Source: Tenacibaculum dicentrarchi
GTDB taxonomy: Bacteria; Bacteroidota; Bacteroidia; Flavobacteriales; Flavobacteriaceae
Direction: 5' to 3'
Assembly (NCBI RefSeq): GCF_900239345.1
Contig: NZ_OESZ01000023.1
Span: forward strand, 1-64,000
DNA length: 64,000 nucleotides
Part shown: positions 55,798 to 64,000 of the stretch, piece by piece
Numbering within the stretch: the first letter of the stretch is position 1
Layout of the letters: each line of letters begins with the position of its first letter
Position numbers and translations under genes: made by a program
Notes under the pieces: generated by a model
Database searches by the model: none
Told to the model about the DNA's origin: nothing
What the model saw: only the letters and a program-made list of their open reading frames with translations

Positions 55798-58700
55798 CTA
55801 ACTATTTTCTACAATCGCAATTTCAGCATCGGTTAAATTGTATAATTTATAAACCATTGCATCAATTTCTTTATCGGTTTGATTTATTTGAGTTTGTAAG
55901 GCTTGAGCTTCGGATTTTTTAACCGTAAAAACATCCATCCAATCCATTTCATCTAGTTTTGTAAGTACGGGAATTATTGGCAGTTCGTTTTTTACAAGTT
56001 CTTTATTATTGCTTTTTATCGCCTTGTTGAGTTCTTTTATAAAATCGCCAAATTCTAAATCGTGCCAGTTTTGAAGCTTTTTTGATAACTTTTCTAATTG
56101 AAATTTTTGCTTTACATACTTTTGGAATTTGTTATTTACTTTTTCAAAAAATTCATAATCAATTAAAATTCTACTTACATTTTGAGAAATATTATTGTTG
56201 CTACTTTTAACAATTGGAATCTTATTCAAATTTACTTTTTTTACTTCAGCAAATAATCTTCCTTTCTCTTGAGAAATATTTTGGTAAATAACTTTAATTA
56301 ATTTACTGTTTAAAATTCCTAAAAGATGTTTTATGTCAATATTTTCTGGAGCTTTAATATTATAAACATTATTAAGATTTATTCTCTTTTTATTATCTAT
56401 TGTAGCAATAATTCTATCAGAAGTTTGTCTTATAATTATTTTATTATCATCAAAAAAAGGAGCAATATTTCTTGGTTCTGCTAACCAAACTCCATAACTC
56501 AAATACATTTCTGGTTTTTGTACAAACCTATATTTATGAAAATCTTTTCCAATAACACAGTTTATATATGTTTCGTCAATTTTACTTGTAGAAGTGAACT
56601 TTTTCTCTTTTACATCTTCCTTAGTTTGTTTAGGCTTACCTTTATTAGTCTGATAAGGTTTAATACCTACTATTATTTGAGTTAACTCTCCTAATTTATT
56701 TCCTTTTTTTAAAATTTTTTGAATATTTAAATCTGAATCATTTAAATTATATGTCTCATCAGAATTAACTACATTTTCATATTTAAAAATCTTAGAGTTT
56801 AATGTTTCTGCTTCTAACTTGTTTTTACATTTTAAAACTGAAATATCACTTTTAATGTTTTTTTCTTTCGAAATAATTAATGTTATTCCATCTCCTATAT
56901 CTGCATCATCAAAAACTTCATAATAATATTTCACAAAATTTATTATAGAGTATTTATTAAAAATAGAACGAATTTTTTTAAAATAATGTTGATAAGTAAA
57001 TGTTGCAGGAGTAATAAATCCTAAAATACCTAAATCTTTTAATAAATCTATTCCTTTTTCATAAAAAACTACATATGTGTTAACTTGATATTCAAATGAT
57101 TTAAAATTTTTCTCTATAAAATATGAAGATTTAATATCCAATTCTGCACCATACGGCGGATTTCCAATAATGACATCAAAACCGCCATTTTCAAATATTT
57201 GAGGAAACTCATTTTCCCAATTAAAGGCTTTATCACCTGCAACGGTTTTACTATCAATTAAAGAATTTCCACATTTAATATTGCTGTTTAAGTTGTTTAA
57301 TTTACGTCTAGGTTGTGCGGTTCTTAGCCACAGCGAAAGTTTGGCAATTTCTACGGATTCTTCGTTTAAATCGACTCCAAAAATATTATTTTCAAGGATT
57401 TTATTTTCAATATCAGGAAAAACAAGAAAACCTCCTAAAAGCTTGGTTTTTAGCTCATCAATATAGGTATGTTCTTTAATTAGAAAATCTAACGCTTGGT
57501 TTAAAAATGCTCCCGAACCACAAGCGGGGTCGCAAATAGTCAGTTTTAACAGCCATTCTCTATAAACATCTAAGAACGAAACTAATTTAATAATCGTTGT
57601 TTTTGGTCTGTTTTTTCGTCCTTTAAAATAGTCATCTTCTTTGATACCGAGTTCTGTTTTCTTTTCGGTACAAAGTTTACCAACGGTATTATCTACAATA
57701 TATTTTGTGATGTATTTTGGCGTATAAAAAACACCATCTTTTTTACGTTTACTTGTTTGTTTATCAAAATTTGAACCTTGAATTTCGGCATTTACGCTTT
57801 CAATTTCATTTAACGAATTTTCAAAAATATGTCCTAAAATATTTACATCAACTTGGCTATCAAAATCATATTCCGATAATTTTTTAGTATGTTTATATAG
57901 TAATTTATCATCTAAAATAAGCGAATTTAAAACGGCATCAGGTTTAAAAAGTCCGCCATTATAAGCGAAAATTTCGGCTTTTTTATCTATTTTTTCTCTA
58001 CCAGTGTCTAAATATTTAAAATACCGTTTAAAGCGATTATATAACGGAACTTCAATATCTAAATCTTTTAATTTATCCCAATCTTTAAGAATTTCAAGTG
58101 TTGAATTTGGTGATAATAAACCTCTATCTTCGGCAAAGAAAATAAACAGAAACCTATCAATTAATTTTTGCGATTTTTTAAACAGACTTAATTTGATATT
58201 TTTATTAATACTATCAATATTTTCTTTTTCCTGTTCGGTTCTAAAAATAGGATTCTTTAAATTCTGTTTTACTAAATCTCGATATAATTCTCTTTTAAAA
58301 AGCGAATAATCGTTATAAAAATCTTTTGTAATTTGTTCTTCTTTAACTACGGATGCTTCTTTAATTTTTAAAGGAATATTATTTAAAATATTATCTTTTT
58401 GTAAACACAAATACAAGAATTGAAACTGTTCTTTAGTAAGTTCAAATAAATTAAACTCTTCAAATTCGGTGGCATCGTTTATATAGAATCGTAATTTTTC
58501 GAAATTTGAAGTAATCACATAAACACAGCCTTTTTGATTTGCTTTATAATCAAAAGCTTGTTTTCTGATGCTTTCTAAATCCTTAGTTTTTGTACCTTTT
58601 AATTCGATAACTGCAATAGCAATGTTATCGTTTAAAATAGCACCATCGGCTTTTCGTGCGTTGGTTTGATTTTTATATTCGGCAACTAAGTTAAAATCGG

Positions 58701-58908
58701 CATTTGGTTTTAGGGTATAATTTAAAATATTAACAAATAATTCCGTTAAAAAAATACCTTGATACTCTTCTTCTTTTGAGCTTCTGATATTTTCTTGTAT
58801 CGTAGGATTTAGAAAATATTTTGTATATTTTTTATAGGCTTTTTCTAGTACTTCTTTTTGCTGAAGTTTAAGATGTTTTTTTAATACGGATACTTGAAAT
58901 AATGACAT
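55798..58908 (-). CDS. Type IIG restriction-modification enzyme (Eco57I-like)
   Basis: A 1036-residue fused restriction and modification protein. The N-terminal nuclease has a PD-(D/E)xK pattern: Asp in KADGAILND (about 87-95) and AVIELKGTK (about 101-109). The adenine methyltransferase has motif I CDPACGSGAFLNQ (about 459-471) and motif IV IIGNPPYGAEL (about 585-595). The rest, about 690-1000, should be the DNA-specificity domain. All core motifs look intact, so one polypeptide may both cut and methylate. It has its own promoter and terminator and no separate methylase, and it lies beside an integrated element. Recognition sequence unknown. Confidence 0.9.
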   Translation of the reverse strand: MSLFQVSVLKKHLKLQQKEVLEKAYKKYTKYFLNPTIQENIRSSKEEEYQGIFLTELFVNILNYTLKPNADFNLVAEYKNQTNARKADGAILNDNIAIAVIELKGTKTKDLESIRKQAFDYKANQKGCVYVITSNFEKLRFYINDATEFEEFNLFELTKEQFQFLYLCLQKDNILNNIPLKIKEASVVKEEQITKDFYNDYSLFKRELYRDLVKQNLKNPIFRTEQEKENIDSINKNIKLSLFKKSQKLIDRFLFIFFAEDRGLLSPNSTLEILKDWDKLKDLDIEVPLYNRFKRYFKYLDTGREKIDKKAEIFAYNGGLFKPDAVLNSLILDDKLLYKHTKKLSEYDFDSQVDVNILGHIFENSLNEIESVNAEIQGSNFDKQTSKRKKDGVFYTPKYITKYIVDNTVGKLCTEKKTELGIKEDDYFKGRKNRPKTTIIKLVSFLDVYREWLLKLTICDPACGSGAFLNQALDFLIKEHTYIDELKTKLLGGFLVFPDIENKILENNIFGVDLNEESVEIAKLSLWLRTAQPRRKLNNLNSNIKCGNSLIDSKTVAGDKAFNWENEFPQIFENGGFDVIIGNPPYGAELDIKSSYFIEKNFKSFEYQVNTYVVFYEKGIDLLKDLGILGFITPATFTYQHYFKKIRSIFNKYSIINFVKYYYEVFDDADIGDGITLIISKEKNIKSDISVLKCKNKLEAETLNSKIFKYENVVNSDETYNLNDSDLNIQKILKKGNKLGELTQIIVGIKPYQTNKGKPKQTKEDVKEKKFTSTSKIDETYINCVIGKDFHKYRFVQKPEMYLSYGVWLAEPRNIAPFFDDNKIIIRQTSDRIIATIDNKKRINLNNVYNIKAPENIDIKHLLGILNSKLIKVIYQNISQEKGRLFAEVKKVNLNKIPIVKSSNNNISQNVSRILIDYEFFEKVNNKFQKYVKQKFQLEKLSKKLQNWHDLEFGDFIKELNKAIKSNNKELVKNELPIIPVLTKLDEMDWMDVFTVKKSEAQALQTQINQTDKEIDAMVYKLYNLTDAEIAIVENS

Positions 58909-59436: not shown

Positions 59437-59462
59437 AAACCTTACTATTTCTAGTAAGGTTT
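59437..59462 (-). terminator. Terminator left behind from the tRNA at the attachment site
   Basis: AAACCTTACTA and TAGTAAGGTTT form an 11-bp perfect stem with a 4-base loop, with A/T runs outside. It lies three bases from the tRNA-derived attachment site and would have ended transcription of the original minus-strand tRNA. Confidence 0.65.
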
Positions 59463-59465
59463 AAG

Positions 59466-59480
59466 TGAGCCCTGGAGGAT
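59466..59480 (-). other. Attachment site: 3' end of a tRNA gene
   Basis: TGAGCCCTGGAGGAT is, read on the minus strand, the last part of a tRNA: two T-loop bases (AT), T-stem CCTCC, acceptor arm AGGGCTC and discriminator A. Resemblance to a tRNA stops inside the T-loop, where GCAATAC replaces the expected TCGAACC pattern. This is the expected trace of integration into a tRNA 3' end; the intact tRNA should lie at the other end of the element, beyond the window. Confidence 0.65.
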
Positions 59481-59595: not shown

Positions 59596-59619
59596 TGCTG
59601 ACACATTTGCTGACACATT
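59596..59619. repeat. Tandem 12-bp repeat upstream of the integrase
   Basis: TGCTGACACATT occurs twice, directly adjacent (59596-59607 and 59608-59619), 41 bases before the ATG at 59660. It is a good candidate for a recombinase or repressor binding site, and overlaps the candidate -33 element. Confidence 0.6.
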
Positions 59620-59640
59620 TAATAAAATAATGTACCTTTA
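59606..59640 (+). promoter_or_regulatory. Candidate integrase promoter
   Basis: TTTG (59606-59609) is followed after 23 bases by TACCTTTA (59633-59640), one mismatch from TAnnTTTG. A start near 59645 would favour the ATG at 59660 over the upstream one at 59630. Confidence 0.35.
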
Positions 59641-59659
59641 TATTATCAAAAAAAAGAGA

Positions 59660-60922
59660 ATGACTAAGATTAGTTTTTACATAAGAAATACTGATACAAA
59701 AAAAGAAACTCCTATTAATTTTCGTATCAATTTATCAAGAGATGAAAAATTAAGAGGAACTACAAAAATTAAAATAGCTCCCCTATTTTGGGATAAAGAA
59801 AAACAAAGAGTTAGAAACCGAGTTGAAGTTTCAAATATCAAAGATGTAATAAATAATAGATTAAGAGAATTTGAAAATTTTATTTTAAATAAAGTACTCT
59901 TATCTGATACTGAAAACCCTATTGAAATTAAACAAAATCTAAAAAATGATATTAAAGATTTTTTTGGAAGAAAAGAGGAGAAAATAGTTCCTACACTTTA
60001 CTCTCAAGCTGAACAATTTATTGAAGACTCTCAAAGAAGAACAATAAATGATAAACCAATATCTAAAACAACTATTTTAGCTTACAAAAGAACTATTAAA
60101 GTATTAAAAGAGTTTGAAGAATGTAATAAATACCCTATTTCTTTTGAATCAATAACAATGGATTTTTATTATGATTTTATAACTTTTTTAAAGGAAAAAA
60201 ATTTTACACCTAATACAATAGGAAATTATATTAAAACACTTAAAGTATTTTTAAGTGATGCCACTGAAAAAGGTATAAATACAAATTTAACGTACAAAAA
60301 CAAAAATTTTATAAAACCTACTGGAGAATCATTTCAAATATATCTGAATGAAGAAGAACTTAGTAGTATGATAAACTTAGATTTATCAAATGATAAAAAA
60401 CTAGATAACGCAAGAGATTTATTTATTATTGGTGCATATACAGGATTAAGAGTTTCAGATTTTAATAATTTATCTAAAGATAATATCGAAGTTCAAAATG
60501 GCTATCAATTATTAAACCTTATTGTTACTAAAACGAATAGACCTATTTCGATTCCTATTCATCCAAAAGTGGCAGATATTATAACTAAAAATAGCGGAAA
60601 CTTTCCAAAAAAAATGTCTGACCAACATATTAACAAATCATTAAAAGAAATAGGTAAATTAGCCAATATTAATACTAAAATAAGCTATAACACAAATAAA
60701 GGAGGTAATATTATTAAAGAAACAAAATATAAATATGAAATGATTACAAATCATACAGGAAGACGCTCTTTTTGTACTAATGCCTATATTAATAATATGC
60801 CAACACTTGATATAATGGCAATTAGCGGGCATACTACAGAAAAAGTATTTCTAACCTATATTAAAATTGGAGCAAAAGAAAGAGCTTTGAAAATTGCAGA
60901 TAATAATTTTTTTAAGAAATAA
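59660..60922 (+). CDS. Tyrosine recombinase (integrase) of the right-hand element
   Basis: About 420 residues from the ATG at 59660 (MTKISFYIRNT); an upstream ATG at 59630 adds ten lysine-rich residues and overlaps the candidate promoter. N-terminal arm-binding and SAM-like core-binding regions precede a catalytic domain with Arg in YTGLRVSDFNN (about 270), HTGRRSF (HxxR box, about 366), ISGHTTEKVF (His, about 388) and the nucleophile in LTYIKIG (about 400). It reads away from the attachment site, 180 bases distant. Most similar in this window to the integrase at 93-1382. It drives integration into a tRNA 3' end. Confidence 0.93.
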   Translation: MTKISFYIRNTDTKKETPINFRINLSRDEKLRGTTKIKIAPLFWDKEKQRVRNRVEVSNIKDVINNRLREFENFILNKVLLSDTENPIEIKQNLKNDIKDFFGRKEEKIVPTLYSQAEQFIEDSQRRTINDKPISKTTILAYKRTIKVLKEFEECNKYPISFESITMDFYYDFITFLKEKNFTPNTIGNYIKTLKVFLSDATEKGINTNLTYKNKNFIKPTGESFQIYLNEEELSSMINLDLSNDKKLDNARDLFIIGAYTGLRVSDFNNLSKDNIEVQNGYQLLNLIVTKTNRPISIPIHPKVADIITKNSGNFPKKMSDQHINKSLKEIGKLANINTKISYNTNKGGNIIKETKYKYEMITNHTGRRSFCTNAYINNMPTLDIMAISGHTTEKVFLTYIKIGAKERALKIADNNFFKK

Positions 60923-60927
60923 ATATA

Positions 60928-61890
60928 ATGGGAAAATATAAAGGTTTTTTTATAGGGAAAGAGAAATATTTTAAAACTGAAAAGATTCACGAATTATTTA
61001 TTGAGATGGATGTACTCGATAATAATGTTAAAATGGATTTAGATAGTAATCAAACTCGTTTTCAGCCAGAAGTTTTCAAAAAAGAATTTAGAGAGGAAGT
61101 TTTTAATGAAATAATAGAAGTATGTAAAAATATTGATGTCGAAAGAGAATGTTTCAATATAAAAGTTCAATTTGAAAATTGCATTGATTCTGAAACACAA
61201 AAAATATTTTTATCAAAAAAAATGAGTGAATATTCTAAAGAACTTAGTGATTCAATAGCTTATTTTTATTACAAAAAATCAGAAAAAGAGTTCCGTTCTT
61301 ATGCTATCAAAAATATCGGTATTGATGAAATATATCAGTACGTTCACGATAAGTTGAAAGATAATAGAAGAGGATATTTTTATATATCTTACTATCGTTT
61401 TTTGAGTAATACTTTAATTTTAGAGTATTTAAGAAACAGAGATGAATTGAATTATATTAATAATGAAAATTTAAACAGTAAAAATAAAAGTGATTTAACA
61501 ACAAGTCCTCAAATTAAATTAGAAGATAATCTTTCTAAAAAAGCATCTAAATATCCTTTAGTTTTTAAAAATTTAGAAACAGAAAAATTATTTGCCAATT
61601 TTTTAAAAGAACACTCAGCAGTAAATGAAAATAATGAACCTATTGATAGGAAGTTTAAACCTATTTGTCATGCTTTTTATACGGTATTAGCAGAAGAATA
61701 CAAACCTAAATCACCTACAAAAAAGTACCCTATATTTATTGTTAGAGTTAATCTAAAAGATTTTATAGATATGTTAGTTAAAGAATATAAAATTAAACCT
61801 ATAACAAAATTATCTAACGGAAATTCTTATTCAAGTATAGCTGATGATTTTTATAAAAAGATAGAAATGAAGTGTTTAAGCATTAAGTAG
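60928..61890 (+). CDS. Element protein of unknown function, next to the integrase
   Basis: A 320-residue, strongly charged and mostly helical protein beginning MGKYKGFFIGKEKYF, five bases after the integrase stop, so co-transcribed. The middle has KNIGIDEIYQYVHDKL and RRGYFYISYYRFLSNTL; the C-terminal part, about 215-315, has CHAFYTVLAEEY and ends with a helix rich in Lys. I do not recognise a family or a catalytic motif. Its stop codon TAG forms the first bases of the iteron array, so it could be the array's binding protein; this is guilt by position only. Confidence 0.75.
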   Translation: MGKYKGFFIGKEKYFKTEKIHELFIEMDVLDNNVKMDLDSNQTRFQPEVFKKEFREEVFNEIIEVCKNIDVERECFNIKVQFENCIDSETQKIFLSKKMSEYSKELSDSIAYFYYKKSEKEFRSYAIKNIGIDEIYQYVHDKLKDNRRGYFYISYYRFLSNTLILEYLRNRDELNYINNENLNSKNKSDLTTSPQIKLEDNLSKKASKYPLVFKNLETEKLFANFLKEHSAVNENNEPIDRKFKPICHAFYTVLAEEYKPKSPTKKYPIFIVRVNLKDFIDMLVKEYKIKPITKLSNGNSYSSIADDFYKKIEMKCLSIK

Positions 61891-61992
61891 AATTTTGAGA
61901 GAATAAATTAGAATTTTAAGAGAACAGATTAGAATTTTGAGAGAACAAAGTAGAATTTTGAGAGAATAAATTAGAGTTTTGAGAGAATAACA
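61888..61992. repeat. Five direct 21-bp repeats (iteron-like array)
   Basis: Five units start at 61888, 61909, 61930, 61951 and 61972, each exactly 21 bases apart. The core TAGAATTTTGAGAGAA is kept with one or two changes per unit (for example TAGAATTTTAAGAGAA in unit 2 and TAGAGTTTTGAGAGAA in unit 5); the last five bases vary. A period of two helical turns puts every unit on the same face of the DNA, as in replication-origin iterons or cooperative operators. The array fills the space before the HTH gene. There are no spacers, so it is not a CRISPR. Confidence 0.88.
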
Positions 61993-62041
61993 TTGCTTTT
62001 ATTTTTTTTGAACTTTGCATCATAATTAAAACCATAAAATT

Positions 62042-62329
62042 ATGATACAACAAAAAGCAACGCTAGTTTTACAGACAACAACACAAGATTTAACGCAATC
62101 AATTTTACAAGGTGTTGAAGAAAAATTAAATAATTTTAAAATACACTTTCAACCTAAAGAACCTACTATTTGGATTTCAAGGCAAGATGTAGCTGAAATT
62201 TTATCTATTTCTATTGTTACTGTTGATGACTGGACAAAAAAAGGAATTTTATCAGCCTACCGAATAGGAAATAAAAAAAGATTTAAACGCAATGAAGTAG
62301 AAAATTCTTTAACTAAAATCAGCAAGTAA
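62042..62329 (+). CDS. Excisionase-like helix-turn-helix protein
   Basis: A 95-residue protein. The second half (about 40-90) is a MerR/excisionase-type winged HTH: WISRQDVAEILSISIVTVDD, followed by WTKKGILSAYRIGNKKRFKR, where the wing recognises DNA. The first 40 residues look helical and may dimerise. In Bacteroidota elements, such proteins regulate excision or transfer genes. It starts 50 bases after the iteron array and is followed one base later by the next gene, so it could be controlled by the array. Confidence 0.87.
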   Translation: MIQQKATLVLQTTTQDLTQSILQGVEEKLNNFKIHFQPKEPTIWISRQDVAEILSISIVTVDDWTKKGILSAYRIGNKKRFKRNEVENSLTKISK

Positions 62330-62330
62330 A

Positions 62331-62648
62331 ATGGAAAATCAAAATATAACAAATACCCTATCCATTCTTGTTGATAAATTTGACGAAAACTTATACCGAA
62401 GATATAATTCTTTAACAGATTATTTTTTAATAAGAGAAAACGAAGCTCTTATTAATCAATTTTCAAATATCAAAAGATTTTTAAATAAAGACCCTCGATT
62501 TCCTTGGCAAATAATTCAAAATAATATTGATGAATTATACAAAAGAGACAATAGTCTTTTAGGAGTAAGAATAGAAATTCTTTTTGAAGATTTAAAAACT
62601 GATAAAAATCAATTTAATCCGAAAATGTATGGAATACCAAGAAATTAG
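62331..62648 (+). CDS. Small element protein of unknown function
   Basis: A 105-residue soluble protein, starting one base after the HTH gene's stop and overlapping the DUF3987 gene by 20 bases, which implies coupled translation. It is charged and helical (MENQNITNTLSILVDKFDEN at the start, RFPWQIIQNNIDELYKRDNS in the middle). I do not recognise it. Placement suggests a role linked to the following protein. Confidence 0.72.
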   Translation: MENQNITNTLSILVDKFDENLYRRYNSLTDYFLIRENEALINQFSNIKRFLNKDPRFPWQIIQNNIDELYKRDNSLLGVRIEILFEDLKTDKNQFNPKMYGIPRN

Positions 62649-63912
62649 CGATTTTCCGTATGATATTTTTCCTGATAGAATTGTTAAATTAATTCAAGAA
62701 GCAAATGAACATCTTAATTATCCTGTTGAATATTTTGCAAGCGCAATTTTATGCGCAATATCAAACGCAATAGGAAATTCCCATATATTAAAGTTTAAAG
62801 AGGGATTTAATGTAAAATGTAATCTATTTTTTGCGTTAGTTGGAAACGCAGGAGATGTAAAAACGCATCCTTTAAATTTAGCTTTTAAACCAATTTCAGA
62901 AAAAGAAGAACGAACATATAAAGAATATATATCTTTATTAAAAGAATACAATTCATTCGATTTAGACGAAAAAAAAACCAAAGAAAAACCGTTATATGTA
63001 AAATCATTATTAAATGATTTTACACCTGAATCACTTATCAAAATTCATGCAACAAATGGAAAAGGTGTTACCATTGTTGCTGATGAATTATTCGGGTGGA
63101 TTAATAGTTTCGGACGCTACAGTAAAAGCTCTGGAGAACAAGAAACTTATTTAAGTCTTTGGAGTGGTAATGCTATTTCAGTAGATAGAAAAGGGGATGA
63201 ACCTGTTAGATTAGATAATTCTTTTGTAAATATTATTGGAGGTGTTCAAAAAAAGTTATTACCCGATTTAGCAAAAGATAATAGAAGTAATAACGGTTTT
63301 ATAGAACGAATGTTATTTGCCATAAATAAAAAACCAAAACCTATTATTTGGAGCGATAAAGATATTGATAAATCATTGATGGACGATTATACACATCTAC
63401 TTAATAAATTAATGGATTTTTCGTGTATAAATGACCAACCCGAAGAAATGGTTTTAACATCAAAAGCAAAAGAATACTTAATTAAATGGCAAAATACAAA
63501 GAGAGTTGAGTATTTTGATTCAGAAGTTAAAACATCAATTCAAGCTAAATATGAAGTTTATGCTTTAAGATTTGCAATAATACTTCAATTAATATACTGG
63601 GGTAGTTTTGGAAGAATTAAAAATGAAATAGATTTCTTTATTATTCAATGTTCCATCAGATTAACAGAATATTATTTTGATAACGCAATAAAAGTAAATT
63701 CTTTAATGAATAAAAAAGACCCTTTAACAAAATTAAACGAACAACAACAAAGAATTTATAAAGGTTTAAACACTAAATTTAGAACAGATGAAATTGTTGC
63801 ATTAGCAAAATTAGAAGGTATTCCTGAAAGAACTATAAAAGATTTTTTAAGTAAAAATATTAATACTATTTTTAGTAAAATAGAAAGAGGTTTATATCGA
63901 AAAATCTATTAA
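62629..63912 (+). CDS. DUF3987 protein, predicted ATPase of mobile elements
   Basis: A 427-residue protein of the DUF3987 group. It has a P-loop-like VGNAGDVKTHPL (about 73-84) whose Gly-Asn-Ala-Gly-Asp-Val-Lys-Thr fits a Walker A variant, and a Walker B-like VTIVADELFGWI (about 147-158) with the Asp-Glu pair. A short C-terminal helical region resembles a wHTH (RTDEIVALAKLEGIPERTIKDF). DUF3987 proteins are common next to primases and replication genes of integrative elements; a helicase or primase-linked role is inferred. It starts inside the previous gene, and a large inverted repeat begins one base after its stop. Confidence 0.82.
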   Translation: MEYQEISDFPYDIFPDRIVKLIQEANEHLNYPVEYFASAILCAISNAIGNSHILKFKEGFNVKCNLFFALVGNAGDVKTHPLNLAFKPISEKEERTYKEYISLLKEYNSFDLDEKKTKEKPLYVKSLLNDFTPESLIKIHATNGKGVTIVADELFGWINSFGRYSKSSGEQETYLSLWSGNAISVDRKGDEPVRLDNSFVNIIGGVQKKLLPDLAKDNRSNNGFIERMLFAINKKPKPIIWSDKDIDKSLMDDYTHLLNKLMDFSCINDQPEEMVLTSKAKEYLIKWQNTKRVEYFDSEVKTSIQAKYEVYALRFAIILQLIYWGSFGRIKNEIDFFIIQCSIRLTEYYFDNAIKVNSLMNKKDPLTKLNEQQQRIYKGLNTKFRTDEIVALAKLEGIPERTIKDFLSKNINTIFSKIERGLYRKIY

Positions 63913-63987: not shown

Positions 63988-64000
63988 AATTAAGATAAAA

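Follow-up and report, generated by a model that had tools for sequence, protein, structure and literature searches.

Introduction

In CTnDOT, the element-encoded activator RteC acts upstream of an operon whose first genes are those for excisionases, and in SaPI elements the repressor Stl is removed by a protein of the helper phage. In the PICMI satellites of Vibrionaceae, the integrase gene (int) is followed by a variable gene (iolg or icg, 13 families), alpA (PF05930/PF12728), often a small gene, and prim (DUF3987 or DUF5906) (PMC10803314). According to the accessible part of that report, phage-induced excision requires the int-adjacent gene, and its authors propose that the gene product has a role in the excision complex. 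A figure legend there names alpA, iolg and prim, and does not name up1, as induced at 15 min, and the authors list the way in which the helper phage activates the early regulon among the open questions (PMC10803314).

Here we describe an island of Tenacibaculum dicentrarchi (contig NZ_OESZ01000023.1) in which a tandem array lies between the integrase-adjacent gene, which we call X, and an operon containing HTH (excisionase-family) and DUF3987 (helicase) genes. We judge it on balance probable that the C-terminal domain of X binds this array and regulates the HTH-DUF3987 operon, probably as an activator. No description of such arrays was found in the literature searched, within which subscription papers were mostly out of reach.

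The Island and Its Genes

The window, i.e., the whole stretch of 64,000 nucleotides that was analysed, opens a 304-kb contig; window positions equal positions in L009 plus 55499. The island is 12.97 kb long and is bounded by an exact 23-bp direct repeat, GGTTTAAGTGAGCCCTGGAGGAT, with the attL core at 59458–59480 and attR at 72401–72423, beyond the window, where it overlaps the 3′ end of tRNA-Arg(TCT). Just inside attL, there are two TGCTGACACAT sites 12 bp apart (59596–59618, forward strand), a motif with four matches in 19.5 kb where 0.12 are expected. A second pair, with one mismatch in each site, is located just inside the right end (L009:16831–16853). These pairs are probably arm-type sites of the integrase and are distinct from the array. 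Since the attachment and arm-like sites stand elsewhere, an attachment site for integrase or excisionase is an unlikely role for the array.

The order of genes in the island is integrase, X, array, HTH, a 105-aa ORF, DUF3987 and then cargo. The integrase is a tyrosine recombinase (59630–60922, forward strand; Phage_int_SAM_5, 2.5e-13; Phage_integrase, 4.1e-11), and X, a 320-aa protein and candidate binder of the array, begins 5 bp after it (60928–61890, forward strand). Downstream of the array, on the same strand, are genes for a 95-aa AlpA/Xis-like protein of the HTH_17/excisionase family (62042–62329; HTH_17, 5.3e-9), which scores 31.5 bits against TIGR01764, above the curated cut-off of 28.8, and for a putative replicative helicase (62629–63912; DUF3987, 2.7e-43; phrog_2373 DNA helicase, 3.4e-48). 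Between them, the ORF list contains a 105-aa frame (62331–62648) to which no function is assigned and which has a relative in L059. Phage_integrase, HTH_17 and DUF3987 are thus found together within 4.3 kb.

The first cargo gene codes for a YgjP-like metallopeptidase on the reverse strand, its 3′ end occupying the last bases of the window (63990–64000). The cargo proteins were scanned, and past the window YgjP is followed by HsdR, HsdS, HsdM and a second, short HsdS of a type I restriction system, all on the strand opposite to the core. No relaxase was found among the five cargo and five core proteins of the island (ORFs above 80 aa were scanned), and Rfam yielded no match. The short HsdS (L009:15632–16219, reverse strand, 195 aa) is located beside HsdM and may provide for a switch of specificity; the repeats listed include no long one in common with the main HsdS. 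Past it, towards the island's right end, there is a repeat of three to four copies spaced 78–94 bp apart (L009:16396–16688). Directly outside the left end lies a gene for a 1036-aa Eco57I/MmeI-like restriction-methylase (55798–58908, reverse strand), which, together with the type I system of the island, suggests a defence hotspot.

The Array

The array occupies positions 61888–61992 of the forward strand, between the X and HTH genes. A reading made from the sequence alone had described it as five perfectly phased 21-base units, and this description is borne out: the five units follow each other at exact 21-base spacing, and with a Tandem Repeats Finder score of 164, they form the strongest of nine repeats reported for the window (the runner-up scores 59). 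Periodic self-similarity of the region is 67, while the maximum among 100 shuffles is 24. As that reading had also noted, the first unit opens with the stop codon of the preceding gene (TAG of X, 61888–61890) and an HTH gene follows about 50 bases on, its ATG at 62042 being 49 bases past the end of the array. A search of the 2.80-Mb genome with a 16-bp core of the array, allowing at most one mismatch, retrieved eight matches, which are the five array units and three lone copies with one mismatch each; the reversed pattern, used as a control, retrieved one.

The sequence-only reading had further assigned two helical turns to each unit. The array is better described as ten one-turn motifs than as five two-turn iterons. 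Each unit is a dimer of two half-units, and the ten AGA(A/G)(T/C) half-sites at 61889, 61900, 61910, 61921, 61931, 61942, 61952, 61963, 61973 and 61984 have spacings that alternate between 11 and 10 bp, i.e., one site per helical turn. A motif recurring at this interval would line up several neighbouring copies along the same face of the helix.

Phased Repeats in Related Elements

Relatives of the DUF3987 protein were found in 26 of 397 genomes of the family, including that of the window, and in 44 of 395 genomes of the phylum, several of these being partial or weak. Eighty loci were kept from a species-representative collection and eight from viral contigs, where DUF3987 as a single query had retrieved nothing, and more were added from searches of the phylum and class. 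In total, 144 loci were examined: sets of 20 and 88 relatives, 35 stronger matches picked by hand, and the window. X, HTH, DUF3987 and an X-HTH gap of at least 40 bp were present in 107 of them and not in the other 37, some of which are at contig ends. Removal of 20 near-duplicates left 87 non-redundant elements (earlier spacing counts used 59). Many relatives have the order int, X, gap, HTH, DUF3987, and the nearest named relatives of the island are Bacteroidota; by DUF3987, the closest is Lutibacter citreus (L059). Neighbouring ORFs of some DUF3987 relatives resemble, by eye, restriction or other anti-phage genes. Two groups of records were set aside. Among E. coli islands, CP4-57 and one relative carry a divergent gene ahead of alpA, and four others show a different order or broken genes, so these islands are not comparable. 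Faecal ‘Bacteriophage sp.’ records were rejected as evidence of packaging, being UNVERIFIED linear scaffolds, one of them with mobilization-like genes by eye.

The search for the array in related elements, which the sequence-only reading had named as a possible refutation, gave a mixed outcome: the array sequence itself is absent from every related element examined, whereas phased repeats are present there as a group. We defined a phased repeat as an exact direct repeat of at least 6 bp at an offset of 10, 11, 12 or 21. When exact direct repeats of this length are counted at all spacings, the gaps peak clearly at 10, 11 and 21 bp and more weakly at 9 and 12, with little else. Phased repeats occur in 62 of 87 gaps (61 of 86 when the window is left out), compared with 24.2 ± 3.7 in shuffles and 15 with control offsets, and 25 gaps have none. 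When a single element was taken from each relatedness cluster, the count was 16 of 26 against 7.5 ± 2.2 in shuffles and 4–8 with control offset sets. Other intergenic gaps between genes on the same strand, which are somewhat longer, contain phased repeats less often than X-HTH gaps at every length tried: 69 of 206 against 57 of 81 for at least 6 bp (p = 1.8e-8), 41 of 206 against 37 of 81 for at least 7 bp (p = 2.7e-5) and 31 of 206 against 23 of 81 for at least 8 bp (p = 0.012). In the earlier set of 59, other intergenic DNA also exceeds its own shuffles at 10–12 bp, more weakly than the X-HTH gaps do (1.26 vs. 2.56 for 6 bp; 1.95 vs. 3.47 for 7 bp). In the coding DNA of X, the 10–12-bp signal is absent (0.91), and the 21-bp one, whose spacing is divisible by three, is somewhat elevated.

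The phasing signal is collective. Taken singly, few gaps are significant (of 73 gaps, 7 have a best periodic self-match with P ≤ 0.05, as do, in a separate count, 4 of 20 relatives), and the array of the window is exceptional. The L. citreus gap carries CCGAACAAAGT twice, at exactly 21 bp and in the same place as the array; its best-scoring period is another one (P 0.14). A pattern of the array DNA had two matches in viral contigs, both set aside, one being by eye a 21-bp repeat in coding DNA (L038) and the other a single pair of copies (L037). Motifs vary among the gaps, and many, such as TACCC, GCCCC, CACC and TCCTAA (by eye), are not A-tracts; intrinsic curvature alone therefore does not explain the repeats.

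The array might also be functionless, a product of chance or of mutational tandem duplication in AT-rich DNA. Its confinement to one of the elements examined, the lack of a full-length X relative in the searches made, and the insignificance of most single gaps are all in keeping with such an origin, but helical phasing that is collective, family-wide and in the same place, together with the coupling to X described below, makes it highly improbable.

Position Relative to the HTH Promoter

The −7 promoter element has the consensus TAnnTTTG. When one mismatch was allowed, 62 of 87 gaps had a −7-like box within their final 60 bp, compared with 40.2 expected, at a median of 35 bp before the HTH start; in the window, the predicted box of the HTH operon is GAACTTTG (62010–62017, forward strand, one mismatch). 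In 44 loci, the repeats end at a median of 26 bp upstream of the box (25th percentile, 6 bp; 10th–90th percentile, −24 to 49) and thus adjoin the expected −33 element.

An inverted repeat, TTGCATCATAATT-10-AATTATGATACAA, spans the HTH start codon of the window (62015–62050, arms 62015–62027 and 62038–62050, score 10). Inverted repeats with a score of at least 8 cover the HTH start in 31 of 87 elements, compared with 4.5 expected in shuffles and 1 of 87 in a control with X coding DNA, and may represent an operator or an RNA hairpin. The case for an operator of HTH itself is weak: the region is kept in 3 of 14 pairs whose HTH proteins are at least 70% identical and whose X C-termini lack homology.

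The position of the repeats bears on the sign of control. Some of them overlap the −33/−7 region, as the 10th percentile indicates, and X could accordingly be imagined to silence the HTH-DUF3987 operon in the integrated island until a helper-phage protein lifts it, in the manner of Stl. A hypervariable DNA-binding specificity that is swapped together with its site is typical of immunity regions, and X, being beside int, may be co-expressed with it. Most of the 44 loci, however, have repeats that end upstream of the −7 box, and PICMI115 without the int-adjacent gene loses excision instead of excising constitutively, as stated in the accessible part of PMC10803314. We thus hold repression to be improbable.

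Origin iterons and a cooperative operator of the HTH/DUF3987 genes had both been offered by the sequence-only reading. The position of the repeats relative to the −7-like box favours the operator, and the origin is retained here as the main rival: X would be an iteron-binding initiator, the array the origin, and DUF3987 the helicase loaded there after excision. The two are compatible, and a single array may serve in both roles. Iterons usually measure 17–22 bp, a looser arrangement than a short motif at every turn; moreover, an N-terminal hydrophobic segment, present in 7 of the 87 X proteins, would be odd for an initiator. The array, on the other hand, is AT-rich repeated DNA that adjoins X, DUF3987 is a predicted replicative helicase (PMC5862659, in the part available; phrog_2373), and the PLE satellites combine RepA with three iterons of ~30 bp, with iteron changes and exchange of replication modules (accessible parts of PMC7145576 and PMC8263062). 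Given that the int-adjacent gene of PICMI115 is needed for excision, a step that survives deletion of the primase (PMC10803314, same part), and that the repeats are positioned with respect to the HTH promoter, we consider an origin unlikely, if less so than repression.

Coupling of the Gap Sequence to the X C-Terminus

Similarity of gaps was scored locally, with the promoter end left out and no coding bases included, and compared with the similarity of the flanking proteins. Judged in this way, the gap sequence tracks the C-terminal ~130 residues of X and not its N-terminus, and similarity of HTH adds little. The gap is shared in 15 of 33 pairs with homologous X C-termini and in 100 of 3708 other pairs (p = 5e-15), and the observed mean gap similarity was reached in none of 2000 label permutations. 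Homology in the X N-terminus alone is accompanied by a shared gap in 0 of 20 pairs. The association holds at different distances between the elements. Where DUF3987 is at least 75% identical, every pair with homologous X C-termini shares its gap (7 of 7) and none of the 34 other pairs does (7 of 7 and 4 of 34 in an earlier version that counted 12 coding bases); where it is below 60% identical, gaps are shared in 6 of 22 and 94 of 3562 pairs, respectively (p = 2e-5). Eighteen of the 33 pairs with homologous X C-termini, e.g., L046/L092, are below the threshold of gap similarity.

Two elements from genomes of one genus, L222 and L223, present a natural swap. They are 93–100% identical over the X N-terminal coding DNA, 77–93% over the HTH gene and 92–100% over DUF3987, while the X C-terminal coding DNA and the gap repeats between these segments are at background (32–42%); toward the integrase, the sequences diverge again (mostly 40–76%). 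Conversely, L040 and L041 have the X C-terminus and the gap in common, yet their DUF3987 proteins are 33% identical.

The X C-terminus adjoins the array, so the coupling may in part be physical linkage. Between X domains that are only 40–55% identical, however, unselected intergenic DNA would be expected to have lost its alignment. Because the gap sequence changes together with the end of X, X is the likely reader of the array.

The sequence-only reading had named both the 320-aa protein and the HTH protein as natural binders, and the coupling speaks for the former, since the gap hardly tracks HTH. Binding by HTH, at an excision-complex site or for autoregulation, would agree with its TIGR01764 domain and with the behaviour of lambda-type Xis, which binds tandem sites about one turn apart. 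Without homology in the X C-terminus, gap similarity is slightly commoner in pairs with similar HTH (4 of 42 vs. 161 of 3666), which is near background. When HTH is at least 70% identical in such pairs, 12 of 14 lack a common gap, and their mean SW score is 7.86 against 7.72 for dissimilar HTH. Together with the 2.4-kb distance from attL and the different motif, TGCTGACACAT, at both ends of the element, this leaves HTH a very doubtful candidate.

Protein X

The position of X is conserved and its sequence is little so, most pairs having no detectable similarity. In profile searches, X of the window falls into no family above the cut-off; in particular, no initiator family and no RepA_N were matched. 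A match to RteC was absent up to E 0.1 for the window X and 9 of 19 other X proteins in the Pfam library, which we take to contain an RteC model, a search that distant relatives could escape. Direct relatives of X were absent from 198 other genomes of the family, 395 genomes of the order gave two fragment matches (E~0.004), and genome contigs, plasmids and phages gave none; no search made retrieved a full-length relative. The C-terminal part is weakly similar to X of L. citreus (30% over 99 aa, E 2e-5). Comparison of X C-terminal families profile against profile gave two links above 25% probability, neither of them to the window X.

The structure model of the window X (pLDDT 31) was unusable, and no DNA-binding domain was recognised in X. 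The model of X from L108, taken together with 11 relatives, reached pLDDT 75 and has a helical C-terminal domain preceded at the N-terminus by two hydrophobic helices. Its fold had no usable match (best E 3.7 in Foldseek; best Z 5.7, on long helices, in VIA-align), and its sequence had none in PDB below E 0.24; the lack of a fold match is no evidence for a new fold. X proteins with the N-terminal hydrophobic segment, such as that of L108 (3642–4412), are possibly membrane-bound regulators, as far as the model goes, and the segment is compatible with a sensor.

Proposed Mechanism

We propose that the C-terminal domain of X would bind the short motif that recurs at every helical turn, immediately before the promoter from which HTH (excisionase) and DUF3987 (helicase) would be transcribed. 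With X bound, the array would most likely switch the operon on when the island is induced, leading to excision and then to replication. We infer binding by X and its activating rather than repressing action, the latter from the position of the repeats and from PICMI; the trigger would, by analogy with PICMI, be phage infection. X might alternatively act in an excision complex, as proposed for the PICMI gene product, but its putative array lies 2.4 kb from attL.

Tentatively, and with less confidence than in control of the operon by X, we suggest that the int-X-HTH-DUF3987 islands of Bacteroidota carry an interchangeable identity cassette, in which a hypervariable X C-terminus and its cognate array are exchanged together between islands whose flanking sequences on both sides of the cassette are near-identical. 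If so, each island would answer its own induction signal and escape cross-control by its relatives, which is a possible reason for the high variability of the integrase-adjacent gene. A swappable regulator domain with a phased array is a concrete candidate for the switch of island excision, and comparison of gaps would allow the motif bound by an uncharacterised protein family to be deduced.

Comparison with Known Systems

The layout proposed for X, a regulator acting upstream of an excisionase operon, is like that of RteC in CTnDOT, although no match to the RteC profile was obtained up to E 0.1. An iteron origin would have direct repeats next to an initiator gene; the array adjoins X, but X matches no initiator family in the profile searches.

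With NBU1, an IME of Bacteroidales (PMC5704250, in the part available), the island shares a tyrosine integrase, an excision factor distinct from it, and a tRNA end as the site of integration. IMEs of this type have a relaxase/mobilization gene of their own, and none was identified in the island. Two Bacteroides plasmid records (L238 and L239) contain the same HTH-DUF3987 core, there followed by DUF6371, MobC and a relaxase, from which it appears that the core is common to mobilizable elements and relaxase-free islands.

PLE satellites resemble the island in having a DNA-binding protein with cognate repeats that diversify and are exchanged, possibly under counter-attack by the phage; in the accessible parts of PMC7145576 and PMC8263062, a phage nuclease that targets the PLE iterons is a plausible selective force for such exchange. 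PLE has three semi-palindromic iterons of ~30 bp, a RepA_N fold and a serine recombinase, whereas the island has a short motif per turn and an X without a RepA_N match.

PICMI has the same gene order as the island, a similarly small size and an anti-phage gene, a likeness that concerns gene order and domain names only. The PICMI combination of int, AlpA/HTH_17 and DUF3987/DUF5906 is present in the island, and X fits the variable gene that lies next to or overlaps int before alpA: it varies across relatives and overlaps an int-like ORF in 7 of the 57 relatives that have one beside X. In contrast to PICMI, which in the published detection model integrates next to fis and has Vibrionaceae hosts, the island is located at tRNA-Arg and its relatives are Bacteroidota; its cargo, a type I restriction system, is also unlike that of PICMI, and the accessible text of PMC10803314 makes no mention of a repeat array. 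If true, an exchangeable pair of X and array could fill the step from helper infection to the alpA-primase operon in satellites of the PICMI type.
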